Origin: a virus
Reading direction: 5' to 3' (one strand)
IMG/VR virus record: IMGVR_UViG_3300020160_002227
Span: 1-31,511 of that record
DNA length: 31,511 nt
The notes beneath the pieces are model-generated. The model saw only the letters and a list, made by a program, of their open reading frames with translations, had not been told where the DNA came from and ran no database searches. Position 1 is the first letter of the stretch, and each line of letters opens with the position of its first letter. Positions 779 to 18,146 of the stretch are shown here, one piece after another. The position numbers and the translations under genes were made by a program.

Positions 779-1017
779 CAATAGAAATTATAGGAAATTG
801 GGAATGGAAAGTAGAAGAGGGTGAAACACCTCCTTTGCTAAATCTTACTATTAAGAATATTTCTGAAAATAAAACCGTAAAGTTACTTAATATTAATTGG
901 GCTACTGGAAGAGAAGATTTTCTTGAGCACTCTTACAACATGGCAATTGAAACTCTTAATAATGGAGATAATTGCTGTCTTGAAGGAAAGGTTGTGATGG
1001 TAGAAGATGGCATCTAG
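775..1017 (+). CDS. Small protein of unknown function
   Basis: This encodes 80 residues. The start overlaps the upstream stop (ATGA), and the end overlaps the next gene by 11 bases, so it is translationally coupled on both sides. It begins [17 protein letters not shown] and has alternating hydrophobic and polar residues consistent with a small beta protein. There is no signal peptide or membrane segment. Its place between two fibre genes suggests an accessory or assembly factor for one of them, but I do not recognise the family. Confidence 0.75.
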
Positions 1018-2320
1018 AATAAGAATAAGAAGAGGCACAACTACTCAATGGGATTCATCTACTAAAATTCTAGAATCTGGCGAGTTGGGATTAGATGTAA
1101 CATTAAATAAGCTAAAGGCTGGTAATGGCACAAGCTTATGGACAGCACTTCCATATATTAATATTTTACCTAGTGAATTGTCAGAGCTTGCTCAAGATGC
1201 AGTTGAAGCGGCAATTACAGCAGGAACGGGAATCACTAAGACCTACAATGATACTGCAAACACAATTACTTTAGCGGTAGATACTACTATTGCAAATAAA
1301 ACCTATGTCGATACCGCCGTATCTGGATTAGGCAGCACTTCTGCAACAACTTATGTGCCACTCAACGTTGTTGGAAATGCAGATGGGGTTGCCTCACTTG
1401 ATGAAACTGGTAAAATTCCAGATTCTGAAATACCAGCAGAAATTACAAGAAATACTTTAGCTCAAACTTTAACAAACAAAACAATTGGTCTTGGAACTGG
1501 GATCACATCAATTGCTCAATACGATAACATATCTGGATTTTTTGGGCAAAGCAACATAGCAATTTACCAGGCAGGTCTTGATCGGGGCGGCAGAATAAGC
1601 ATTAGCGCAGAAGGAGTTATTTCTGTAGTAAATTCTGGAATAGGATATGTGTCAGGAATAGTAACTACTAGTGGCGGAACAAGACTTATTATATCGGTAG
1701 GAGGAAATACTCTTAGCGGAACCTTGGCTGAATTTAATGCAGCATTAACAGATGGAGATTTTGCTACACAGTCTTATGTTTCCACAGCAGTATCAAATCT
1801 TTTAGATTCTGCGCCAGAAACACTAAACACTTTAAATGAACTTGCGGCAGCAATAAATGATGATGCTTCTTATGCAGCTACTATTACAACTGCTTTAGGA
1901 ACTAAAGCTCCAATTGCCTCCCCTACGTTTACTGGAACAGTTGGCGGAATCACAAAAGACATGGTTGGTCTTTCAAATGTAGATAATACCTCCGATAATA
2001 CAAAAGCTTTAATTTCTTATATTCCAGTATCATCTGCTACACGGACAATTAGTTCCGCCACAGACAAAAACACCCTTATTGAATGCAGCGTTGCTTGCAC
2101 AATTACAATTCCAAATGACACACAAGACGCAGGCTGGCCAATAGGATCAATGGTTGAAGTTAGACAAACTGGAACAGGGCAGGTTACTATAACAAAAGAT
2201 GCGGAAGTAACAATGGTAGGAACAGACTCCCAATTTAAATCAAGAGTTCAATGGAGCACAATTATGATAGAAAAAAGAGCAGCAAACTCCTGGTTAGTTA
2301 CAGGAGATACAACTGCATAA
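1007..2320 (+). CDS. Tail fibre with tropism-determinant-like N-terminal domain
   Basis: This encodes 437 residues. The N-terminus (RIRRGTTTQWDSS..GELGLD..LNKLKAGNG) matches the short domain at the N-terminus of phage Mtd-type and hyaluronidase-type fibres, which forms a trimer base. Repeats typical of long fibres follow: AGTGITKTYNDTANTITLAVD near residues 70-90, YVPLNVVGNADGVASLDETGKIP near 120-145, and a SAPETLNTLNELAAAINDD / APIASPTFTG block near 265-310. These blocks recur in the 756-aa fibre at 5340. The last 95 residues (TITIPNDTQDAG, VEVRQTGTGQVTI) look like a phage fibre-tip beta domain. The role is probably a receptor-binding fibre. No retroelement variable region is seen. Confidence 0.85.
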   Translation: MASRIRIRRGTTTQWDSSTKILESGELGLDVTLNKLKAGNGTSLWTALPYINILPSELSELAQDAVEAAITAGTGITKTYNDTANTITLAVDTTIANKTYVDTAVSGLGSTSATTYVPLNVVGNADGVASLDETGKIPDSEIPAEITRNTLAQTLTNKTIGLGTGITSIAQYDNISGFFGQSNIAIYQAGLDRGGRISISAEGVISVVNSGIGYVSGIVTTSGGTRLIISVGGNTLSGTLAEFNAALTDGDFATQSYVSTAVSNLLDSAPETLNTLNELAAAINDDASYAATITTALGTKAPIASPTFTGTVGGITKDMVGLSNVDNTSDNTKALISYIPVSSATRTISSATDKNTLIECSVACTITIPNDTQDAGWPIGSMVEVRQTGTGQVTITKDAEVTMVGTDSQFKSRVQWSTIMIEKRAANSWLVTGDTTA

Positions 2321-3666
2321 TGCCAAGAGGACCCAGAAGAAGACATAATGCATCTGTCTCAAGGCTAAAAGCTTTACTTTCCCTTGTAGAAGATTTTAGT
2401 AGACTAACACTTGTAAATGCAGGACTGACTTCTGCAAAATGGAAGCATTTGGTTGCTGGATGGGCAATAGCGGCAGGTAAAGGAACTTCAGCCACAGTTG
2501 GTGCATTAATAGCAACAACATTTTCATCTACTAATGCGGTTATAAAAGCAAAAAATCCAGCATCGGGTGTAGGCCCAGCTTTTTGGGTCACAGACTCTGG
2601 AAACTATTGGGCGGTAGTAAAAAATACAACAAATATTTGTCAAACTTGTTCGGCATGCGGACAATATAATAGCTGTTCTTATTGTAGCTCATACGCCTAT
2701 GGGTCTAGTGCATCTTGTGGTTGTGCTTCATATACTCAGACTACATGTTGCAACCAATACAATTATGGACCAAGTCCAAGTTGCGGATGTGCTTCATATA
2801 CTACAACATCATGCTGTAGTCAATATGGGACTTGTACTGTATGCTCCTCATATGGAACACAAACATGCTGTACTGCTTACTCTGCTTATACATGTTGTAT
2901 AGCAAGCGTTCCATTTTATTACACATGCTGTACTGGATATAGCTCAGCTAGCTGTTGCACAGAATATTATACATACTATGGTCGTTTTTGCTGTGCCGCA
3001 TATGTTTATAATTCATACAAAGGTGGAACTGTATGCGGACAATATTATGAGTGTGCAGTAACTCTATGTTTTTCATATGGAACATGTACAACCTGTTCTT
3101 CATACAGCGAATGCTCGGGATCATATTGTTCAGTGTACGGTAGCTGCCAACAATGTGTCGCATATGGGGATTGCACAGTTTGCACTGGATACTCACAGCA
3201 ATCATGCTGTACTGCTTATACTTCATGCACAGTTTGTGCTGCATATAATTCATGTCAAGTATGTTCAGGCTATACTTCATGCACAGTTTGTGGAGCATAT
3301 AATCAGTGCCAATACTGCGACGGATATTCCTACGGACCAAGTGCATCCTGCGGATGTGCTTCATCGTATACATATAATTGCAACTGCGCCGACCATCATA
3401 AAATAGATTTAATTAAAAAAGAAGGCGGATCAGAAACAGTTATATCTTCAACGAGTAATTCAACTTCAGCAATTGCGGGAATTAAGGTAACCACTGATGG
3501 CAATAGTGTTACAGCTCAAGCTTACTCAGATGTAAATTATTCTTCTCAAGTCGGCTCAGACTTAACCACAACAAATAGTGGACAGAAGTCGAAGGATCAT
3601 GGTATAATTTCAAGAGCTTCAAATGCAAGCCAAGGCTACACCATAGATGAATTTAGGGTAAATTAA
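2320..3666 (+). CDS. Jelly-roll-like tail protein with a Cys/Tyr-rich repeat insert
   Basis: I place the start at the ATG of the TAATG overlap (2320), giving 448 residues; the in-frame ATG at 2251 would lie deep inside the upstream fibre. Residues 1-106 contain GPAFWVTDSGNYWAVV, a strand pair typical of jelly-roll/LamG-like actinophage minor tail proteins. Residues 357-448 contain the matching later strands (KIDLIKKEGGSETVISS, IKVTTDGNSVTAQAYSD, YTIDEFRVN). Between them lies a 250-residue insert with about 50 Cys and many Tyr in 9-residue units. The insert therefore appears to sit in a surface loop of one fold. Cys-rich inserts at this point occur in some actinophage tail proteins to my recollection; their function is unknown to me. 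The role is probably a virion-surface adhesin. Confidence 0.8.
   Translation: MPRGPRRRHNASVSRLKALLSLVEDFSRLTLVNAGLTSAKWKHLVAGWAIAAGKGTSATVGALIATTFSSTNAVIKAKNPASGVGPAFWVTDSGNYWAVVKNTTNICQTCSACGQYNSCSYCSSYAYGSSASCGCASYTQTTCCNQYNYGPSPSCGCASYTTTSCCSQYGTCTVCSSYGTQTCCTAYSAYTCCIASVPFYYTCCTGYSSASCCTEYYTYYGRFCCAAYVYNSYKGGTVCGQYYECAVTLCFSYGTCTTCSSYSECSGSYCSVYGSCQQCVAYGDCTVCTGYSQQSCCTAYTSCTVCAAYNSCQVCSGYTSCTVCGAYNQCQYCDGYSYGPSASCGCASSYTYNCNCADHHKIDLIKKEGGSETVISSTSNSTSAIAGIKVTTDGNSVTAQAYSDVNYSSQVGSDLTTTNSGQKSKDHGIISRASNASQGYTIDEFRVN
2638..3387 (+). repeat. Nonapeptide Cys-x2-Cys-x2-Tyr repeat array
   Basis: Residues 107-356 of the host gene are built mostly of 9-residue units (27 bases). There are two variants: x2-C-x2-C-x2-Y (such as TSCTVCAAY, NSCQVCSGY, TSCTVCGAY, NQCQYCDGY) and x4-CC-x2-Y (such as GTQTCCTAY). 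A longer unit, YGPSxSCGCASY, occurs three times (around 2695, 2765 and 3330) and seems to frame the array. I count about 50 Cys in 250 residues. At DNA level the units are diverged, so this is not a recent tandem expansion. Confidence 0.9.
3599..3608 (+). promoter_or_regulatory. Possible extended -10 inside the Cys-rich gene
   Basis: ATGGTATAAT lies 58 bases before the ATG at 3667. The same 10-mer or close variants precede other gene blocks (14284, 20461, 28257). It is inside a coding region, so chance is possible, but it could drive the small-gene block at 3667-5318. Confidence 0.25.
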
Positions 3667-4065
3667 ATGAATACTAAGATTAGTTTTATTCAAGGCCTTA
3701 AAGATTACTTTAGAGATATTGCTATTTATGTAAAAACTTTTACAAGTAAGTATTTAAGACATAATTTAAAAATTGGATACAGAACTCCAAAAAACCATGA
3801 ATTTATTCCCGATCAATCTAAGCTTGGAATGCACCTAGCCATATTAGATCCAACATCTATGATAGTAGAGGATATTATGACAACCAATCCAAAATTTGGC
3901 AACTTGCTTAAAATGGGTCCAATTTTTATTGAGATTAATCATGAGCAAAAAAACAAGCTAGATTTAGATTCTAAAAACTGGATATATAATGAAGACGAAA
4001 AGGACTTTTTTGAAATCAAAGATATAGAACCAGTCCCCCTAGAAGAATGGAATAGCAATGGTTGA
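3667..4065 (+). CDS. Conserved-looking phage protein of unknown function
   Basis: This encodes 132 residues, starting directly after the upstream stop with AGGG 8 bases before the ATG. The sequence is charged and soluble, with no repeats, signal peptide or membrane span. The middle contains LGMHLAILDPTSMIVEDIMTT, and the C-terminus is acidic with Trp. It is unlike the fibre genes around it in having low Gly/Thr/Ser content, which points to an enzyme-like or regulatory protein rather than a shaft. It opens a block of four such genes. I do not recognise the family. Confidence 0.7.
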   Translation: MNTKISFIQGLKDYFRDIAIYVKTFTSKYLRHNLKIGYRTPKNHEFIPDQSKLGMHLAILDPTSMIVEDIMTTNPKFGNLLKMGPIFIEINHEQKNKLDLDSKNWIYNEDEKDFFEIKDIEPVPLEEWNSNG

Positions 4066-4300
4066 TCCATTTGAAAGGCCAGCCAGGCCCTGGGACCTAT
4101 ATAATAAAAAGATAGGTCGTGTAGACAATTTAACGGCATCAGAAAGACTTGAGATTTGCAAAGGTTGTACTTTTTTTATAAAAACTACTAGCCAGTGCAA
4201 AAAATGTGGTTGCCTTATGACGGCAAAAACAAAGTTACCAAACGCAGAATGCCCTATTGGAAAATGGGGACAGACTAAGATAGAGGAGGAAACAAAATGA
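4058..4300 (+). CDS. Small zinc-ribbon-like protein
   Basis: This encodes 80 residues and overlaps the previous gene by 8 bases and the next by 4 (ATGA). The core is ERLEICKGCTFF (residues 29-40), then QCKKCGCLM (46-54), and C-P-I-G-K-W near 65-70. The two Cys-x2-Cys pairs could hold one zinc ion, and the further Cys residues are conserved in small phage proteins of this type that I recall from cyanophage and other aquatic phage genomes. The function of the family is unknown to me. Candidate roles are nucleic-acid or protein binding. The zinc role is inferred from Cys spacing. Confidence 0.75.
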   Translation: MVDPFERPARPWDLYNKKIGRVDNLTASERLEICKGCTFFIKTTSQCKKCGCLMTAKTKLPNAECPIGKWGQTKIEEETK

Positions 4301-4577: not shown

Positions 4578-5318
4578 ATGAAAAGAATTAAATTTGTTGT
4601 TTCTCCAGATATAACAGACATACTTGAGCCATCTCCTATGAAGAATTATATTCCTCAGTGGTATAAAGATGGAGAGATGTATGATGATAAAAACTCTGCA
4701 GGACTAAAAACGTGTGTACCATTTCTTGATGTAATGCTATCGGGATACGCATTGACAACCATTGATGATTTAAAAATATCAAGAGAAGGTGGTTTTGTTG
4801 TTATTGAAGATGGTGAAATAAAAGAAGATGGTTCATTTGAACCTAATCAAAAAAGACCTTCACATAACCATGAAATTAAAGACAATCAAATTTTTAGTAG
4901 ACTGGTAAATGAAAGAAAAGGTTCAACTGGATCCACTATACCAAGACCACCAGGACATATGCAAAACCATTTTGTTTGGGGAGGCAAATGGGGATGGAAA
5001 GTTCCAAGAGGATACTCCGTACTAGTAACACATCCCTTTAATAGGCTTGATCTTCCATTTACAACATTGTCTGGAGTTATTGACAGCGATGGCTGGGTTC
5101 CATCTGGAAATATTCCTTTTTTCTTAAAAGAAGATTTTGAAGGAGTTATTCCGAAAGGAACTCCAATAGCTCAACTACTTCCCTACAAAAGAGATTCCTG
5201 GGTTATGAAAATTAGTAAAATACTTCAGGCTCGTTACACCGTTGACATTAAAAGCCACTCAAAAGGTTCAGATGGATACTACAAAAAGAAGTATTGGAAC
5301 CGCAAGAACTATAACTAA
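4578..5318 (+). CDS. Conserved phage protein, beta-barrel-like, function unknown
   Basis: This encodes 246 residues, with AAGGG just upstream of the ATG. Recognisable family signatures are YIPQWYKD (residues 24-31), the KTCVPFLDVMLSGYAL stretch near 44-59, a His/Asn-rich middle (HNHEIKDNQ), and THPFNRLDLPFTTLSGVIDSD (near 152-172) followed by IPKGTPIAQLLPYKRDSW. I recall proteins with this set of motifs in cyanophages and some bacteria, all uncharacterised. The spacing of beta-turn glycines and the final barrel-like strands suggest a double-stranded beta-helix or trimeric barrel. The GTPIAQL stretch is only superficially like dUTPase. The C-terminus is basic and Tyr-rich. No function can be assigned. 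Confidence 0.75.
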   Translation: MKRIKFVVSPDITDILEPSPMKNYIPQWYKDGEMYDDKNSAGLKTCVPFLDVMLSGYALTTIDDLKISREGGFVVIEDGEIKEDGSFEPNQKRPSHNHEIKDNQIFSRLVNERKGSTGSTIPRPPGHMQNHFVWGGKWGWKVPRGYSVLVTHPFNRLDLPFTTLSGVIDSDGWVPSGNIPFFLKEDFEGVIPKGTPIAQLLPYKRDSWVMKISKILQARYTVDIKSHSKGSDGYYKKKYWNRKNYN

Positions 5319-5339: not shown

Positions 5340-7610
5340 ATGGCAACTACATTCCCTACAACACTAGATCAACTGTTAAATCCAGCAGCTACTGATTCTG
5401 TTGAGTTTGTATCTCATGCCGCCCAACATTCAAATGCCAATGATGCAATTGAGGCCCTAGAGGCCAAACTTGGTGTTGATAATTCTACAAATGCCGCAAC
5501 CATAGACTACAAGGTTCGGGACCTAATATCTAAAATTTATACAAATGAAATGGCGCAGGATGCCATCGCTACCGCATTGGCCGCAGGAACCCATGGGAAT
5601 ATAACCGTTGCTTATGATGATGTAGCAAACTCATTGAGCCTAACAGCTACATATGATGATGAAGAAGTCATGGACGCTATTGCCACATCTTTAACTGCAG
5701 GCACGGGGATTACAAAAGTTTATAATGATGTTGCAAATACAATAACCCTATCGGTAGATACGACAGTTATTGCTACATTAGTAAATGGATTTGTACCTCA
5801 GTCTCAGCTAGATATTGATGAGAGAATCCAGGACGTAGCAGCAAAATTAATTACAGATGGAACTCACTACAACATAACCGTCTCATATGATGATACAGCT
5901 GCAAAACTAAGTTTAAGTGCAAATTATGATGACGAAGAGGTCATGGATGCTATTGCAACTTCTTTAACAGCGGGAAATGGCGTAACAAAAACCTATGACG
6001 ATGTCGCTAACACCATAACCCTTGCGGTAGACACCACTGTTATTGCAGATCGGACATATGTCAATACAGCAATATCTAATTTAATAGACTCAGCCCCAGC
6101 CGTGTTAGATACGCTAAATGAAATTGCCGCCGCAATTGGCGATGATGCAAATTTTGCAACAACTATAACTAACGCTCTTTCTCTAAAAGCCCCGCTAGCC
6201 TCCCCAGCATTTACTGGACTACCAACAGCGCCAACCCAATCTCCAGATGATAATTCAACCACAATCGCTACAACCGCTTTTGTTCAAACAGCAAAAACAG
6301 GCGCTACACAAAATGCAAAAACTTATACCGATGCTGCAATTACAGCACTCGGAAGCACAGCAGCCACAACCTATGTTCCTTTATCAGAGGTAGGTCAAGC
6401 AGACGGAATTGCAACACTTGATGAAAATGGAAAAGTCCCTTTAACGCAATTAAATATAGACGAGAAAATTCAAGACGTAGCTGCAGGACTAATAACATCT
6501 GGCACACATACAAATTTAACCGCAACCTATGATGACGTAACAGGAAAGATTAACTTTGTAGCAGTAGCTCAATTAACACAAGAGCAAGTCCAGGACGCAA
6601 TTGGCCCTCTATTTGCACACGGAACTAATCCAAATATATCAGTCACATATGACGATGAAGCAAACAAAATGATTCTAGAAGCATATATTCCTGCATCTAC
6701 TGCTAAAATGTCTCCTACTGCCCCACTGAGCCCTATAGACGGACAGTTCTGGTTTGATACAGATGAGTATAGAAGTGGAAATACAAGATCTTTAAAGGTA
6801 TGGAATGCCTTAACAACAACTTGGGAGTATGTCTCAACAGATCTTTCTTTATCAACTACTAACACATGGACCTCTAAGAATACATTTACTAACGGAATCA
6901 TTATTGGTCTTGATGCCGCACCATTAACACCAGTACACGGACAAATTTATTATAATAAATCTTTAAATAAGCTAAAGGTATACGACGGATTATTGTGGCA
7001 AGATATTCAAGGAAGCGGTGGAGGCGGCGGCGGATTAACATTAATTCCAACCGATACTTCAGTTGCTCCAAGCACATTCTTTGTTGGATTAATTGCCCCA
7101 CCAAGTGGAGCTACAACAGCAGGAGATCTTTGGATAGATGTTGACGATGATGCAGGTGCTACTGAATTTGTTTTTGCTGGACCCAATCCTCCAGCCCAAG
7201 GAACTTTTGGAATGGACACGCTATGGATTGATACAGATGATCCCGACCTTCCTTTAATTTATTCAGACAATGAGCCACCATCATACTCAGCAATAGAGGG
7301 CGACTTCTGGGTAGACCTAGATGACACAAGCGGTCAATCAATTTTGTCTTCAACTACAGCTCCAAATCCTTTGCAAACAGAATTTTGGCTAGACTTAACA
7401 ACAGAAGAAGGCGAAATAACTTATTCTGATTTGTTTAAAAACAATGCTGCACAAATAACAAACTTTGCTAGTTTGCCAGCAGCTAATTTACATGGCGGAA
7501 TGATAGCATACGTCTCATCAGAGGCTTCTTTATATGTAGCAGCGGCAGGACAATGGATAAAAATATTCCCAACCTTTGATTCGGAAACGTTAATTTGGGC
7601 TGGGGTTTAA
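5340..7610 (+). CDS. Long repeat-built tail fibre
   Basis: This encodes 756 residues and is the first gene after a 21-base gap holding TATAAT, with no ribosome site. The N-terminus (FPTTLDQLLNPAATDSVEF..HAAQHSNANDAIEALEAKLG) is the common head of phage fibres that dock to a baseplate or tail. Three tandem YDD-type modules follow (DDVANSLSLTATYDDEEVMDAIATSLTAG and variants; residues about 75-240), then the LDTLNEIAAAIGDD / APLASPAFTG and NGKVPLTQLNIDEKIQDVAA modules. The last third carries repeated Trp/Asp motifs (GQFWFDTD, GDLWIDVDDD, DTLWIDTDD, GDFWVDLDD, TEFWLDL) after a poly-Gly hinge. The acidic clusters could bind calcium (inference). It is a likely adhesin sharing blocks with the gene at 1007. 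Confidence 0.85.
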   Translation: MATTFPTTLDQLLNPAATDSVEFVSHAAQHSNANDAIEALEAKLGVDNSTNAATIDYKVRDLISKIYTNEMAQDAIATALAAGTHGNITVAYDDVANSLSLTATYDDEEVMDAIATSLTAGTGITKVYNDVANTITLSVDTTVIATLVNGFVPQSQLDIDERIQDVAAKLITDGTHYNITVSYDDTAAKLSLSANYDDEEVMDAIATSLTAGNGVTKTYDDVANTITLAVDTTVIADRTYVNTAISNLIDSAPAVLDTLNEIAAAIGDDANFATTITNALSLKAPLASPAFTGLPTAPTQSPDDNSTTIATTAFVQTAKTGATQNAKTYTDAAITALGSTAATTYVPLSEVGQADGIATLDENGKVPLTQLNIDEKIQDVAAGLITSGTHTNLTATYDDVTGKINFVAVAQLTQEQVQDAIGPLFAHGTNPNISVTYDDEANKMILEAYIPASTAKMSPTAPLSPIDGQFWFDTDEYRSGNTRSLKVWNALTTTWEYVSTDLSLSTTNTWTSKNTFTNGIIIGLDAAPLTPVHGQIYYNKSLNKLKVYDGLLWQDIQGSGGGGGGLTLIPTDTSVAPSTFFVGLIAPPSGATTAGDLWIDVDDDAGATEFVFAGPNPPAQGTFGMDTLWIDTDDPDLPLIYSDNEPPSYSAIEGDFWVDLDDTSGQSILSSTTAPNPLQTEFWLDLTTEEGEITYSDLFKNNAAQITNFASLPAANLHGGMIAYVSSEASLYVAAAGQWIKIFPTFDSETLIWAGV

Positions 7611-7624
7611 TAAAAGATATGTTG

Positions 7625-7630
7625 TATAAT
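7625..7630 (+). promoter_or_regulatory. Possible -10 box
   Basis: TATAAT sits in the 39-base gap before 7650, ending 19 bases upstream of the ATG. A GGAGAGG ribosome site lies at 7634-7640. No -35 or TGn extension is seen. Confidence 0.3.
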
Positions 7631-7649
7631 AGTGGAGAGGTAATCAAAT

Positions 7650-8267
7650 ATGTCATTAAAACGCTATAACGGAACTGAGTGGGTAGTCGTAGCAGGATCA
7701 CGACCAGGCCCAACGGGAGCTACTGGCCCACAGGGTCCAGCAGGAACCGCAGCAGCCGTATCTGTAGGTACAGTAACATCAGTTGCTTCAGGCGCAAATG
7801 CAACAGTAACAAATTCAGGCACAGCAACAAATGCTGTTTTTAATTTTTCAATTCCACGGGGCGCATCAGTAACAGGTCCAGCGGGAGTTCCAGGAACACG
7901 AGGAACAAAGACATACACAGCTCAATCAGTTCCACAAAATGCAGGCCTAACAAATTTAATTGAAGGCGATAATTTTATTAATTTAAATACTGGAGAATAT
8001 TATGTCTACAGTGCTGGAACAACAACATGGGTATTGCAAGGCAACGTAAGAGGGCCACAGGGTATTCAGGGTCCAGCAGGAGTTGCGGGACCGACTGGCC
8101 CAATTGGTCCAATTGGAGATGTGGTTGTGGCGGATATAGAAAGAAGAGTTTCAGCCTATGAATTAGATTCATTACTTAATCTAGGTATTTATTATCCAAA
8201 ATATGCACTAACATCATCTTTGGCACAGATAAATGGTACAATTATGGCAACAAGTTTTATTTTCTAA
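7650..8267 (+). CDS. Short collagen-like tail fibre
   Basis: This encodes 205 residues, with GGAGAGG upstream. It opens SLKRYNGTEWVVVAGS, the short aromatic lead also used by other fibres here (KLYDGTTW in the gene at 24113). A first Gly-X-Y run (GPTGATGPQGPAG) is followed by the TSVASGANATVTNSGTATNAVFNFSIPRG module typical of fibres, then a small beta domain (NFINLNTGEYYVYS..TWVLQG), a second collagen run (residues about 130-155) and a C-terminal segment SLAQINGTIMATSFIF. It is probably a side fibre or a linker to the large protein that follows. Confidence 0.8.
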   Translation: MSLKRYNGTEWVVVAGSRPGPTGATGPQGPAGTAAAVSVGTVTSVASGANATVTNSGTATNAVFNFSIPRGASVTGPAGVPGTRGTKTYTAQSVPQNAGLTNLIEGDNFINLNTGEYYVYSAGTTTWVLQGNVRGPQGIQGPAGVAGPTGPIGPIGDVVVADIERRVSAYELDSLLNLGIYYPKYALTSSLAQINGTIMATSFIF

Positions 8268-11794: not shown

Positions 11795-12460
11795 ATGCCA
11801 GACTATACAACGTTATCGAGTCAGATAGAGTTATTTAAAACAAAGGTAACTGCACTGGCTTCAACAACCCTAGATGCAAATGATTTAGTTCTTATAGCAT
11901 CAGCACTAGATACACTGGCAAAATCAATGGGCGTTAATGATATTTTAGAATTAACAAATGAAAGAATTGCCGCAATTACCGCTGCAAAAGATGCAGCAAT
12001 AGTATCAATTAATCAATCTGTAAATGGAACAAGATTAACAGATCTTGAAACTGATTCAGCTGATTATGAGACAAGAATTTATGCAGTAGAGAATTATGTA
12101 AATACAGCAGGCGGAAATATATCTGCACTTTCATCATTGGTTACCGCTTTAGATTCATCAATTACTCCAAATGTTATGAAAGCATGGACAACGGTTACTG
12201 CAAACTATCAGGCTTTAGTAAGAGATAGACTTCTTGTGGTTCCAGCTGCAGGAATGATTATAACTTTGCCAGTAGCACCAATAGCGGGGGACACAATTAC
12301 ATTTATAGATGCTGTAGGCACCGCAGGATCTACTAATTTTACAATAGCAAGAAATGGTAAGCCAATACAGTCTTTGTCAGAAGATTTAATTGTTGATGTT
12401 GCTTCAGCATCATTTGATTTAGTATTTTATAATAACGTAACAGGATGGAGAATAGCATAA
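11795..12460 (+). CDS. Coiled-coil plus beta-tip fibre protein (cassette A)
   Basis: This encodes 221 residues, with AGGAGA upstream. Residues 1-50 (MPDYTTLSSQIELFKTKVTAL..) match the 110-aa protein at 14317 at 30 of 50 positions. The helical, heptad-like stretch continues to about residue 125. From about 130 onward the protein is a fibre-tip beta domain (MIITLPVAPIAGDTITFID, NFTIARNGKPIQ, DLVFYNNVTGWRIA) of a type seen at the ends of many phage fibres. It is the first gene of a three-gene cassette that is repeated from 14317; in the second copy the beta domain is absent. The stop overlaps the next ATG. Confidence 0.8.
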   Translation: MPDYTTLSSQIELFKTKVTALASTTLDANDLVLIASALDTLAKSMGVNDILELTNERIAAITAAKDAAIVSINQSVNGTRLTDLETDSADYETRIYAVENYVNTAGGNISALSSLVTALDSSITPNVMKAWTTVTANYQALVRDRLLVVPAAGMIITLPVAPIAGDTITFIDAVGTAGSTNFTIARNGKPIQSLSEDLIVDVASASFDLVFYNNVTGWRIA

Positions 12461-14004
12461 TGTCAAATTTAAAAACGATACTTGGCGGAGGTAGTTCAAC
12501 TACTGGTGGACCAGCCTCAACAAACTTAACCATCCCAATGAACGAGTTAATCCCTGGCCCACTACCAACATTTGCTACATGGCAATGGTATTGGGGAAAC
12601 TCAGATCAAAACTCTGGTGGATATCAAGTTTATGATAGCGGTTTGAACATGATTGCATCTTCAAAGGCAGGCTCAACTCACTCAGATACTGGAGACGTTA
12701 ACACTGCTACTAGATGGACAATTTATGGCAATGGTAGAGCTGAAATTATGACAGGTGATCAAAATAATGGTCAAGGCGGCTCGTCTGGAGAAGCGTATTG
12801 GACTCAGTCTAACTATACATCTAACTCAGAAGCATACGGAAATATGGGATGCTGGTCAAATGGACAATGGGGAAGCGCACACTTTAGATTCCCAACATAT
12901 AATATGGTTGGAAATACTTTCGCAAGAAGTCCTCAATATTGGGGTCCTTACAAGGCAAGAACTGGCGTAGTAATTTGTAAAGAGGGTGTACGCCCAAGAT
13001 ATAGTATTTGGCAAGATAATGCTGATATTCGTTTCCACATTCGTGGAGTAGCAGAATCAAATGGCGGATACATTGATAGAATTTCTAGTATTTCAAGTGC
13101 AACCTATTCAACATGGGGAAGCATTGGTTCAGGATATGGTCAAGTGGGATATAACGACAGAACTAGAACATTTGTGTTGATTGAGTCAACAACCAATAAT
13201 ACAAATAGAATACACGTATGGCAAAATCTAAATGATGGCAGAAGTCTTCAAAGCCCATTAATGGGCGCAGGATATGCCCACAACTTCTTTGCAGAGGCAA
13301 AGTCAGGCGGAACCACTGGAGCAAAAGCTAATTACAAGTTCTACGACTTTACATGGGCATCAGGCGGATCAACTCAAGCAGAGCCTACATACAGAAAAAG
13401 AGTAATTGTTGGAGATAACGGCATAATCGGTATGTCTAGAATGTGTCCACAAGGCAATGCAACAGAGTATGCAACGTTAGATTTGCCTTCGGCAACTCCA
13501 GGAGCTTCTGCTACTGCTCAATTAAATACTGCTTCTTATCGTCGCATGGGAAATACCACTTCCTACTCAATTGATCAAGGCGATAGATACGGAATGAATC
13601 ACAACATAACTTGGGATAACTCAGTTGTAGCATGTTACGCACCATATTATTACTATGGTTCTGGAATGCATGCATACTATATTGATGCTTATAATCCAAC
13701 ACGTACATTTGTTTCTGAAAACAACTCGTCTACAAATGGTTGCTCTTTAGTTCCAATCGGAGAAGGTTCATTTATGTGGAGAGCAAATGAATGGAATATG
13801 GACAGCGGTCAAGGATTTAGAATGTGCTGGCTACCAATAAAGCAAATGTTTACAAATTTAAAGGATCAAAATGGTTCAGCAATTGCATTAAATGCAACTA
13901 TTAACCCAGAGTTAACTGGAAGCAATGGATATATGTTTGATTCATTTTATAATAGCACTCAATACGGAGCGCTACACGTTATGGATAGATGGGTGACAAC
14001 ATGA
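12460..14004 (+). CDS. Aromatic-rich beta adhesin, paralogue 1 of 3
   Basis: I chose the ATG at 12460 (TAATG overlap, GGAG upstream) over the in-frame ATG at 12445, giving 514 residues. The sequence is rich in Tyr, Trp, Asn, Ser and Gly with strand-turn patterning and no signal peptide. Motifs shared with the genes at 14994 and 16566 include TGVVICKEGVRPRYSIW (RCGTIIGARGVRQRVSHY in the others), YNDRTRTFVLIES, FYDFTWASGGSTQAEP, VGDNGIIGMSR and NTTSYSIDQGDRYG. The repeated Y-N-D-R-T..RIHVWQN strands hint at a beta-propeller or lectin-like fold, but I cannot assign one. It is probably a receptor-binding virion protein. The stop overlaps the chaperone-like gene as ATGA. Confidence 0.8.
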   Translation: MSNLKTILGGGSSTTGGPASTNLTIPMNELIPGPLPTFATWQWYWGNSDQNSGGYQVYDSGLNMIASSKAGSTHSDTGDVNTATRWTIYGNGRAEIMTGDQNNGQGGSSGEAYWTQSNYTSNSEAYGNMGCWSNGQWGSAHFRFPTYNMVGNTFARSPQYWGPYKARTGVVICKEGVRPRYSIWQDNADIRFHIRGVAESNGGYIDRISSISSATYSTWGSIGSGYGQVGYNDRTRTFVLIESTTNNTNRIHVWQNLNDGRSLQSPLMGAGYAHNFFAEAKSGGTTGAKANYKFYDFTWASGGSTQAEPTYRKRVIVGDNGIIGMSRMCPQGNATEYATLDLPSATPGASATAQLNTASYRRMGNTTSYSIDQGDRYGMNHNITWDNSVVACYAPYYYYGSGMHAYYIDAYNPTRTFVSENNSSTNGCSLVPIGEGSFMWRANEWNMDSGQGFRMCWLPIKQMFTNLKDQNGSAIALNATINPELTGSNGYMFDSFYNSTQYGALHVMDRWVTT

Positions 14005-14993: not shown

Positions 14994-16556
14994 ATGGCAG
15001 TAAATACAACAACAAACCAAGTCTATATACCAGGGTTTGAAACAAATATTCAAAACGTGGTTACTCCGCTTGCTAATACAACAGCTACTGCCGTTACATC
15101 ACTACAAAATGCAATTCCAGGTCAGTTTGCAGGCATACTTGGAAAGTTTCCACATGCTGCTACTTCAAGAAATAACACAGAGCCTTCTCCCTACCCACTT
15201 TTTGCAATTTGGACAAATCAAAACAACTCTAGAAAAGCTGGATACTCAGTAATTAATTCAGAGTGGCAAGTTGTAGCAACAAGCAGATTAAACAACCGTC
15301 AAGGCGGATGGTCAGATGTTGATCTTTCCGAAATGAACAACTGGTATGAAGACTTTAGAGGTTGGACCTATACAAATGGCAACATTGATGCAGGCGGAAA
15401 CACAACTTATTCTGGTGGCGGAACTAATATGAATGGTGCTGACGGAAATCATCTTTATGCATTTCAAGTATTTGGTAATTATGGAAACTCTGGATTTAAC
15501 AGAGCCGACCAATGGGGTCAGTTTACTAAGCGCTGCGGAACAATTATTGGGGCTAGAGGAGTAAGACAAAGAGTAAGTCATTATTCAACTGATTCAACTT
15601 TTCAAATAAGATTAAGGGGCTCAATTTATGGCTTTCAAGATCAGGTTAACTTAAACTCAGCAACCTACGCAACCTGGGCGGGACGCACAAACCGTGGAAT
15701 GTCTTCATATAACGATAGAACAAAAACACTTGCAGTTGCTGAATCAAATACATCAAACTCAATCAGACTTCACATCTGGAAGAATACAAATCCAGATTTA
15801 AATTTAAATTCTAACAACCATAAAGCTGGAGACCTTCACCTATTCTTGTCACAGGCAAAAACAGCGGGCCCATCTGGAACAACAGCAAGTTATGCTTTCT
15901 ATGACTTTACATGGACATCGGGTGGTTCAACACAAGCTGAGCCTTCCTATGTAATGAGATTAATTATGGGAGACAATGGAACAGTTGGTTTCTCAAGATT
16001 CTCTCCACAAGGAAATGCTCAACAGTACGGTTGGTATATACCAACAAATCCAGGAACTCCAGGAAACTCAGGTACGGGAGCGTTTACTGATAGCGGCACA
16101 AACTTAGGAAATACAACATCTTATTCAATTGATCAAGGCGATTCTTACGGAATTAGAACAAACATTTCGTGGGACAACAACTGGGTAATCTCATACTCAC
16201 CTTATTATTACTACCACTGTGGAATTAATCTTCACTGTATATATACCCAAGATCCTACAAAATACTACCACTGGAGAAATACAGATTCAAGCAATGGATT
16301 ATCCCCAGTACCTTATGGAGAAAGTTCATTTGTAATGCTTTACTCGGTTCAAAATGGAGATGGTCAAGGACCATGTTTGTATGTTGCAAATCCCCAGGCA
16401 GCATTTGAAAATGGATATAGAAACAATGCAACAACAGTTTCAAATGGTGGAGACTTACAGCCATTCAATGTTAACTTCAACTATGATTTTGATACAATGT
16501 CTAATACAACACAGTATGCACATATTTCAGTAATGCCACACTGGACAACGGTCTAA
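14994..16556 (+). CDS. Aromatic-rich beta adhesin, paralogue 2 of 3
   Basis: This encodes 520 residues, with AAGGGAGA upstream. The first 60 residues (NIQNVVTPLANTTATAVTSLQNAI) look helical and may trimerise; paralogue 3 has a similar lead, paralogue 1 does not. Shared motifs are YPLFAIWTNQNN, NNWYEDFRGWTYTNGN, RCGTIIGARGVRQRVSHY, YATWAGRTNRGMSSYNDRTK, FYDFTWTSGGSTQAEPSY, MGDNGTVGFSRF, NTTSYSIDQGDSYG and the closing QYAHISVMPHWTTV. It is closer to paralogue 3 than to paralogue 1, and a 74-base stretch differs at only 4 positions from paralogue 3. It is probably a virion adhesin; fold and receptor are unknown. Confidence 0.8.
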   Translation: MAVNTTTNQVYIPGFETNIQNVVTPLANTTATAVTSLQNAIPGQFAGILGKFPHAATSRNNTEPSPYPLFAIWTNQNNSRKAGYSVINSEWQVVATSRLNNRQGGWSDVDLSEMNNWYEDFRGWTYTNGNIDAGGNTTYSGGGTNMNGADGNHLYAFQVFGNYGNSGFNRADQWGQFTKRCGTIIGARGVRQRVSHYSTDSTFQIRLRGSIYGFQDQVNLNSATYATWAGRTNRGMSSYNDRTKTLAVAESNTSNSIRLHIWKNTNPDLNLNSNNHKAGDLHLFLSQAKTAGPSGTTASYAFYDFTWTSGGSTQAEPSYVMRLIMGDNGTVGFSRFSPQGNAQQYGWYIPTNPGTPGNSGTGAFTDSGTNLGNTTSYSIDQGDSYGIRTNISWDNNWVISYSPYYYYHCGINLHCIYTQDPTKYYHWRNTDSSNGLSPVPYGESSFVMLYSVQNGDGQGPCLYVANPQAAFENGYRNNATTVSNGGDLQPFNVNFNYDFDTMSNTTQYAHISVMPHWTTV

Positions 16557-16565
16557 GGAGAAAAA

Positions 16566-18146
16566 ATGAGCGAAAATACAACAGCAACAACAACTTCACA
16601 GATAATCCATCCAGGACTTGAAGATTCAATCAGATCTATTATTACCCCTATAATTGCTACAAACAACACTGCACTCGGAACAACTTTGGGCACAATTGCT
16701 ACAAACATATCTTCACTTTCAGGTAAAGTTGCATCACCAGTTATATCAAGAAATAATAACGAAGTTTCTCCCTACCCAACATTTGCTATTTGGACAAACC
16801 AGAACAATGCACAAGCAGGATATCATATAGTTAACTCTGATTTTCAAAATATTGCTTCAAATGCAATGCCAGGATGGTTTGGTGGCTACCAAGACCCAGA
16901 TCTTAACAACATGCCTAACTGGTACGAAGACTTTAGATCATATACATATACAAATGGTAACTTTGACTCAAGTACTGTAACAACATACTTCGGTGGATCA
17001 ACTGTATGGGGTTCAGCTGATGGGCACGTTCTTTACCGACCATGTCTTCACGGAGGATTTTCTGGGAACTGGATGAACAGAGCAGATCAAAGAAATCAAT
17101 TTTTAATTAGATGTGGAACAATTATTGGAGCTTATGGAGTTAGACAACGTGTTAGCCACTACACAACTGATTCAACTTTCCAGATTAGACCAAGAGGCGC
17201 AACATATGGATATAATGACACAATTAACTTAAACTCAGCAACCTACGCAACTTGGGCGGGACGCACAAACCGTGGTATGTCATCATATAATGATAGAACT
17301 AAAATGCTTGCTGTAGTAGAGTCAACAACTGCAAATGCAATTAGACTTCACGTATGGAGAAATACCTCCGTTAGCTTAAATGATTTTAGCCCTAAGCCAG
17401 GAACACTTCATAAGTTCTTGTCAGAGGCTAAAACAGCAGGTCCTACAACAGGAAATCAACTAAGTACAACAAAGAATTATGCTTTCTATGACTTTACGTG
17501 GGCACATGGTGGGTCAACAAGGGCAGAGCCTTCTTATCACATGAAAATTATTATGGGAGATAACGGAACAGTTGGATTTGCAAGATTTAATCATGACGGA
17601 TATCAACAAAAGTATGGATATTTCTTGCCACAATCTCAGGGTACCGCAGGTAACTCAGGAATTGGAACATTTACCGATACTAACATCGACCTAGGAAATA
17701 CAACATCTTATGGTATTGATCAGTCAGAGTCCTGGTATGGACAAAAGCACGACAATACATGGGATAACCAATGGATTGCTGTATATTCTCCATACTATTA
17801 TTATGGATCGGGTATTAACTGCCATACTATAAATACTGTAGACCCAACAAAACTTTTCTATTTTAGAAACACAGCTAGTGCAAATGGATGTGCACTTGTG
17901 CCATTCAAAGAAGATAAATTCCTTACTATTATTTCAAACAATAATGGAGATGGCCCTGGACCATATTTGTATCTTGTAGATCCAGGATCAGCAAGTAAAA
18001 ATTTAAGAAGAACTGATGGCACTACTCTATCATTTGGCGGAGACCTACAGCCATACAATTCAACTTACTATTACCAATTTGATACACACTCAAATACAAC
18101 CCAATATGCACACTTAATTAGTATGCCACATTGGTCAAACCCGTAA
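16566..18146 (+). CDS. Aromatic-rich beta adhesin, paralogue 3 of 3
   Basis: This encodes 526 residues, with AAGGAGA upstream, 9 bases after paralogue 2. It begins with a Thr/Ile-rich helical lead (SIRSIITPIIATNNTALGTTLG), then follows paralogue 2 motif for motif (YPTFAIWTNQNN, NWYEDFRSYTYTNGN, GTIIGAYGVRQRVSHY, MGDNGTVGFARF, QYAHLISMPHW). Differences gather in the loops between these motifs, for example residues about 140-170 and 290-310, as expected if the core is kept and receptor-contact loops vary. It could form a hetero-oligomer with paralogue 2 or be an alternative adhesin; the sequence cannot decide. Confidence 0.8.
   Translation: MSENTTATTTSQIIHPGLEDSIRSIITPIIATNNTALGTTLGTIATNISSLSGKVASPVISRNNNEVSPYPTFAIWTNQNNAQAGYHIVNSDFQNIASNAMPGWFGGYQDPDLNNMPNWYEDFRSYTYTNGNFDSSTVTTYFGGSTVWGSADGHVLYRPCLHGGFSGNWMNRADQRNQFLIRCGTIIGAYGVRQRVSHYTTDSTFQIRPRGATYGYNDTINLNSATYATWAGRTNRGMSSYNDRTKMLAVVESTTANAIRLHVWRNTSVSLNDFSPKPGTLHKFLSEAKTAGPTTGNQLSTTKNYAFYDFTWAHGGSTRAEPSYHMKIIMGDNGTVGFARFNHDGYQQKYGYFLPQSQGTAGNSGIGTFTDTNIDLGNTTSYGIDQSESWYGQKHDNTWDNQWIAVYSPYYYYGSGINCHTINTVDPTKLFYFRNTASANGCALVPFKEDKFLTIISNNNGDGPGPYLYLVDPGSASKNLRRTDGTTLSFGGDLQPYNSTYYYQFDTHSNTTQYAHLISMPHWSNP

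Follow-up and report, generated by a model that had tools for sequence, protein, structure and literature searches.

A lectin-like tail protein of an actinophage with a mirror-ordered cysteine insert, probably an antiparallel hairpin of nested disulfides

The window, by which we mean the whole stretch of 31,511 bases that was analysed (IMG/VR virus record IMGVR_UViG_3300020160_002227), carries a gene for a tail protein in which a predicted concanavalin-A-like (ConA-like) lectin domain is split by a cysteine-rich insert (2320..3666, plus strand, 448 aa). As judged from the number and order of its cysteines, this insert very probably folds back on itself, stapled by up to 25 nested disulfides. 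We consider it likely that it is an antiparallel two-arm hairpin with nested disulfides on an actinophage tail lectin, and that it acts as a host- or surface-binding arm. Based on the similarity of the portal protein (56% identity to that of Streptomyces phage BillNye), the source of the window is assigned to the tailed phages of the Stanwilliamsviridae kind.

The gene is defined by its translation, by in-frame purifying selection, and by its homologues. We refer to the window's own ladder protein as P0001 and to homologous loci or members from IMG/VR by L-numbers. The insert of P0001 (residues 107-357; 2638-3390) comprises 251 residues, among them 50 Cys and 39 Tyr. All 50 Cys are found within residues 107-356 and none in the flanks, which bears out the first-pass annotation, where about 50 Cys in 250 residues had been claimed. 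According to the family alignment and a model of member L171, the N-terminal half of the beta-sandwich covers residues 1-106 (2320..2637) and ends in the strand FWVTDSGNYWAVV, and the C-terminal half covers residues 358-448 (3391..3663, 'HKIDLIKK ... GYTIDEFRVN'). Cys positions and the mirror analysis described below delimit an N-arm of the ladder (residues 107-225; 2638..2994) and a C-arm (residues 239-356; 3034..3387), with 25 Cys each, those of the C-arm being in mirror order. Between the arms lies the tip segment AAYVYNSYKGGTV (residues 226-238; 2995..3033), which is the longest Cys-free stretch between two Cys and contains the only Lys of the insert. All of these subregions are on the plus strand.

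The reading frame of the ladder gene is real and under purifying selection, since nearly all aligned Cys codons are kept in close homologues, with many TGT/TGC switches, and dN/dS of the insert is ~0.1-0.3 wherever it is computable from homologue comparisons. Loss of the Cys positions among homologues, named beforehand as an observation that would speak against the initial description, did not occur; the positions are conserved in close homologues.

Within the insert of P0001, a Cys-Cys spacing of 9 is encountered 23 times (9.4 in shuffles of the insert, z=5.3) and a Tyr-Tyr spacing of 9 is encountered 16 times (5.6 in shuffles, z=5.0), while Cys precedes Tyr by three residues in 22 cases (7.8 in shuffles, z=6.2). 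The nine-residue units described initially thus persist as a dominant period, but they are not uniform: a unit length of 9 is the commonest with lengths of 10-13 also present, the Cys pair of a unit may be CC, CxC, or CxxC, and only C-x-x-Y is really fixed. In the wider family, unit length ranges from 7 to 11 residues and one member has just 2 Tyr. The surface of the insert is rich in Tyr, Ser, Thr, Asn, and Gly and is almost uncharged.

About 60 related genes were found in IMG/VR. All have the insert at the same place, and their inserts differ greatly from each other in sequence, unit length, and size (94-310 residues). Among IMG/VR, cultured phages, and GTDB genomes, direct homologues of P0001 were restricted to IMG/VR contigs; by way of the distant homologue L136, a second group of relatives was reached. 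A scan of IMG/VR for the motif W[VI]TDxGN returned ~50 distinct open frames, which have in common an N-terminal half ('DTFNR..... W...RG ... YP ... ALWVTDSGNWW') and a C-terminal half ('CYPQYIR.IQS..NTV ... YSD....QIGSDL.YT..G......YGI...PS'); in the family alignment, the insert between these shared halves is almost entirely different. Searches of INPHARED by tblastn gave no match for P0001, for either of its flanks, or for L136 or L210, with a portal control being matched, and GTDB genomes contained no relative of the close or of the wide family. There was no match in sequence searches of solved structures, no credible match to Pfam, PHROGs, or NCBIfam for P0001 or 35 family members, and no paper on the ladder family came up when the literature was searched for phage tail proteins that are Cys-rich or have nested disulfides. 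The ladder gene of L177 and L191 is distributed over two open frames, and unrelated sequence lies where it is interrupted; an Rfam search of these two loci detected no intron.

The fold of the flanking domain was modelled with AlphaFold2 on L171, the insert of which is among the shortest. The flanks reach a pLDDT of ~90-97 and the insert, which sits between strands 95-102 and 212-221, stays below 50; the regions equivalent to residues 1-106 and 358-448 of P0001 have a pLDDT of ~85-96 and 90-97, respectively. The segments on both sides of the insert form one domain in this model, so the earlier proposal that the array splits a single beta-sandwich is retained, and a placement of the flanks in separate domains, which had been named as speaking against it, was not found. 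In a Foldseek search of the PDB, the best solved structural match of the flanking domain is the central fibre gp20 of mycobacteriophage Douge (PDB 8zdp; E 3e-5, 10% identity), and L-type lectins (VIP36, ERGIC-53, and legume lectins) rank after this phage fibre (E 6e-4 and weaker); TM-scores of the PDB matches are 0.2-0.4, the insert being included. The BFVD matches are six uncharacterised proteins of uncultured phages together with minor tail proteins of actinophages. Both the model and its PDB matches have the two-sheet beta-sandwich of the ConA-like lectin/glucanase fold, and by this modelling the flanks together are assigned to one such fold related to actinophage tail fibres. The former term "jelly-roll tail protein" is thus kept as regards a beta-sandwich and a tail protein and revised as regards the fold, which is now modelled as ConA-like. 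Isolated domains of the Douge central fibre, which is a tail fibre, bind mycobacterial glycans (PMC13033339); carbohydrate binding by the ladder protein is putative. Models of the insert are of low confidence for both P0001 and L171. The full-length model of P0001 is poor (mean pLDDT 46) and was used just as weak support for the turn position: it has a hairpin turn at residues 231-236, coinciding with the tip.

Evidence for two facing arms comes from the cysteines. Their number is even in 38 of 38 members analysed and in further complete members, ranging from 10 to 50, and the conserved flanks contribute no Cys to this count. With one vote per sequence group, the chance of this parity is ~2^-17 (17 groups, made by eye from the alignment rather than from a tree and independent only approximately). 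An even number is consistent with oxidised disulfides. The central segment between two Cys contains Lys or Arg in 26 of 38 members, as compared to 73 of 978 other segments; among members of the window's clade, no other Cys-free segment is as long, and the conserved 'YKGG' turn or a variant of it is located here. The tip segment of P0001 divides the Cys 25/25, and the counts on the two sides of the tip across members are 25/25, 20/20, 21/21, 16/16, 12/12, 11/11, 9/9, 8/8, and 7/7. Because several of these counts are odd (25, 21, 11, 9, 7), pairing solely within an arm is excluded.

The spacing of the Cys is mirrored as well. For 16 group representatives, the mean |log ratio| of paired two-Cys unit lengths is 0.163 when the arms are paired at the centre and 0.34-0.48 at shifts of 1-6 Cys from it. 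The mirror statistic for the same representatives is 13.9 compared to 31.6 ± 2.6 in shuffles, with 0 of 20,000 as low (P<5e-5), and the signal is not lost when the outermost unit is dropped. Pairing the arms in a parallel (direct-repeat) register was rejected, its statistic of 33.2 being no better than that of shuffles. Exact matches of single gaps between the arms number 41 (24.8 ± 3.8 expected). Counted outward from the tip, the gaps are 8,9,9,7,12,46,11,12 versus 7,9,10,8,13,50,12,11 in L147, and 5,8,8,10,10,10,10 on both arms of L182. A held-out set, fetched by the C-terminal flank pattern after the symmetry had been noticed, revealed a previously unseen group (L223, L225, L226, L229, and two further copies) with gaps of 14,5,8,49,5,6,5 versus 12,6,8,52,5,6,5; its members have a long gap which is alike on both arms (49/52, 52/50, 48/48, 43/46). 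In the held-out members L223, L229, and L181, the mismatch amounts to 0.134 with the arms paired at the centre and to 0.59-0.87 elsewhere. The near-uniform units of P0001 leave no significant mirror match of unit lengths when this protein is taken alone (p=0.35); here, the case for a ladder is made by the 25/25 division, the tip, and the paired deletions described below. Taking the likely tip motif as the centre puts L220, L179, and L193 out by one rung, and a clear tip is lacking in L187 and in the 10-Cys members L171/L202. Where an N-arm unit has 'CC', the facing C-arm unit has 'C-x5-C', and a plain flat beta-ribbon therefore does not fit.

Relatives which differ by two Cys have lost one per arm, at the same or a near rung, with the rung assignment depending on pairwise alignments of repetitive sequence. 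Changes at the same rung are N5+C5 (L153/L157), N7+C7 (L208/L218), N4+C4 (L205/L136), and, as two pairs in one comparison, N11+C11 and N4+C4 (L174/L178); changes at near rungs are N6+C7 (L159/L188), N5+C6 (L148/L203), and N8+C6 (L179/L193). Within the window's clade, relatives with 40 Cys have lost five per arm and L115 has lost four per arm. Compared to L147, L181 carries one more Cys within the long gap on either arm (22+24 instead of 46; 24+25 instead of 50). Long Tyr-rich stretches between rungs occur in L147, L151, L162, L181, and L190 (e.g., SYSYATNYG repeats in L147), so that repeats also exist without Cys within one ladder cell.

The upstream neighbour of the ladder gene is a tail-fibre gene (1007..2320, plus strand) with PHROG tail and minor-tail matches; its stop overlaps the start of the ladder gene, and in most loci the ladder gene comes immediately after the C-terminal domain of this fibre gene (~2054-2308). 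A small CxxC protein is encoded two genes downstream of the ladder gene (4058-4300; PHROG 13558, weakly like DUF6171), and a gene of the same kind directly follows the ladder gene in L136 (2499-2774). The protein encoded at 4578-5318 (PHROG 7084, unknown function, E 6e-33) is clearly similar to a protein that L135 encodes close to its ladder gene (7106-7858). The genes for three proteins of ~520 residues, evidently paralogues, lie close together (12445-14004, 14994-16556, 16566-18146), with small genes between the first two; the first has no Pfam match. Several collagen-like (Gly-X-Y) tail proteins occur in this one phage (2-778, 20477-22792, 23025-24104).

An antiparallel hairpin with nested cross-arm bonds is preferred because it predicts the order found, in which the k-th Cys on one side of the tip corresponds to the k-th on the other; nested Cys pairs across two antiparallel arms are thus seen at the level of sequence statistics. 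The ladder protein would be a tail-tip lectin-like protein of an actinophage. Two arms of ~118 residues each would leave one loop of the ConA-like domain, run to the K-G-G tip, and return, and each Cys of the outgoing arm would pair with the one of equal rank, counted from the tip, on the returning arm, from C107-C356 as the outermost to C225-C239 as the innermost of up to 25 nested disulfides. Since the cytoplasm is reducing, these disulfides probably form after lysis. The arm would be rigid and protruding, and its fast-varying surface or its tip may bind to a structure on the host surface, for example a glycan of the cell wall, with the ladder holding the scaffold constant while the surface varies. 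From the fold, the gene position, and the variability, we consider recognition of the host or of another surface, by an arm that varies on a ladder that does not, to be the likeliest function. The wider proposition, that the hypervariable recognition arm is a zipper of up to 25 nested disulfides in which just the mirror order of the Cys need be kept and the surface is therefore almost unlimited in how it can change, we regard as evenly balanced.

The main rival to a recognition function shares the proposed fold and differs in function only: the ladder could be purely structural, serving as a rigid spacer, as a clamp to a neighbouring tail fibre, or for protease protection. We rate this as possible, if rather doubtful. 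The ladder gene adjoins a fibre gene with a conserved C-terminal domain, and an arm of more than 100 residues could bridge a large distance. Compared to the lectin flanks, however, the insert is far more variable in length and surface sequence; in the more distant members of the clade to which P0001 belongs (L007, L009, L010), its dN is ~0.6-0.7, and that of the flanks is ~0.1-0.2. Diversifying pressure on a contact surface would account for such fast change better than a fixed clamp does, although an unconstrained spacer could also drift rapidly.

Bonding by metal instead of disulfides, left open in the first-pass annotation, is unlikely. Facing Cys pairs of the N-arm and C-arm would then make Cys4 sites for zinc or iron, and CxxC and CC units indeed face each other in a protein that is made in a reducing cytoplasm. 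However, a Cys4 array calls for Cys in multiples of four and the totals, while even, are often not (50, 42, 30, 22, 18, 14, 10); moreover, single two-Cys rungs are gained and lost, and two-Cys units are not retained in every family. Disulfides are considered probable and are favoured over Cys4 metal sites on account of these totals and of the single rungs. It is very unlikely that the insert is a repeat solenoid or stack, as suggested initially, in which each nine-residue unit closes its own Cys pair and the Tyr are stacked as a ladder; insect antifreeze proteins are tight solenoids of a comparable kind. In favour of a solenoid, Cys and Tyr recur strongly every nine residues within the window's clade. 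Coil length, however, is not constant, the wider family retains the mirror symmetry of the Cys and neither unit length nor Tyr, and a Cys pair within each coil leaves unexplained the equal halves, the mirror spacing, the odd Cys number per arm, and the paired losses across the arms, all of which favour cross-arm pairing.

There is a negligible chance that the ladder arises from collagen-like (Gly-X-Y) DNA repeats read out of frame or in antisense, as most Cys-rich YxxCxxC frames in other contigs appear to do among the matches listed; for the window's ladder gene, this is refuted by the conserved frame, the low dN/dS, the TGT/TGC switching, and the conserved flanking domain. The bare YxxCxxC DNA pattern occurs in at least 120 stretches of IMG/VR. 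Among the matches listed, most Cys-rich in-frame cases were rejected as false, being repetitive frames which resemble antisense or shifted collagen-like repeats, and such repeats are the probable source of false Cys-rich frames in other contigs. The same caution was applied to L220, the best INPHARED matches of which, in cultured phages, cover its repeat region only.

If the nested hairpin is correct, sequence alone suffices to tell which Cys are bonded to each other in a large undescribed family of viral tail proteins, with cross-arm covariation of Cys being used much as base pairs are deduced in RNA. In length, the hairpin would far exceed every nested cystine ladder known to us. It would exemplify how a phage protein from a reducing cytoplasm can become locked through oxidation once it has been released, and would provide a scaffold on which the surface may change to a very large extent. 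In uncultured actinophages of water or soil, which have no cultured relatives that bear the ladder gene, it would further be a candidate for the part that recognises the host.

The ConA-like fold of the flanks is common to VIP36, ERGIC-53, and legume lectins, and we know of no L-type lectin with a Cys-ladder insert. In beta-hairpin cystine-ladder peptides, disulfides are nested across strands. Theta-defensins, tachyplesin, and gomesin are antiparallel hairpins among the cystine-ladder peptides (PMC13001179). They share with the insert, as proposed, an antiparallel hairpin with nested cross-strand disulfides, but they are free peptides of ~14-22 residues with two or three disulfides and have no homology to the insert, which has 10 to 50 Cys (5 to 25 rungs) at irregular spacing within a lectin domain. 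To our knowledge, no disulfide-stapled hairpin approaches 25 nested disulfides. Douge gp20 (PDB 8zdp) resembles the flanks in structure at 10% identity, and the paper on this fibre makes no mention of disulfides (PMC13033339). The parts thus have known analogues, and no precedent was found for the scale and the mirror rule. Bovine ultralong CDR H3 is a long, variable, disulfide-rich antiparallel recognition arm which emerges from a beta-sandwich loop (PMC5994613), and in this it resembles the insert as proposed. The two are unrelated: the bovine arm has up to ~70 residues and a disulfide-stabilised knob at the end of its stalk on an Ig domain, whereas the insert has 94-310 residues and rungs along the entire arm on a ConA-like fold. 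With about equal weight on either side, such a zipper arm may represent a new protein architecture and a convergent viral counterpart of the ultralong antibody loop.
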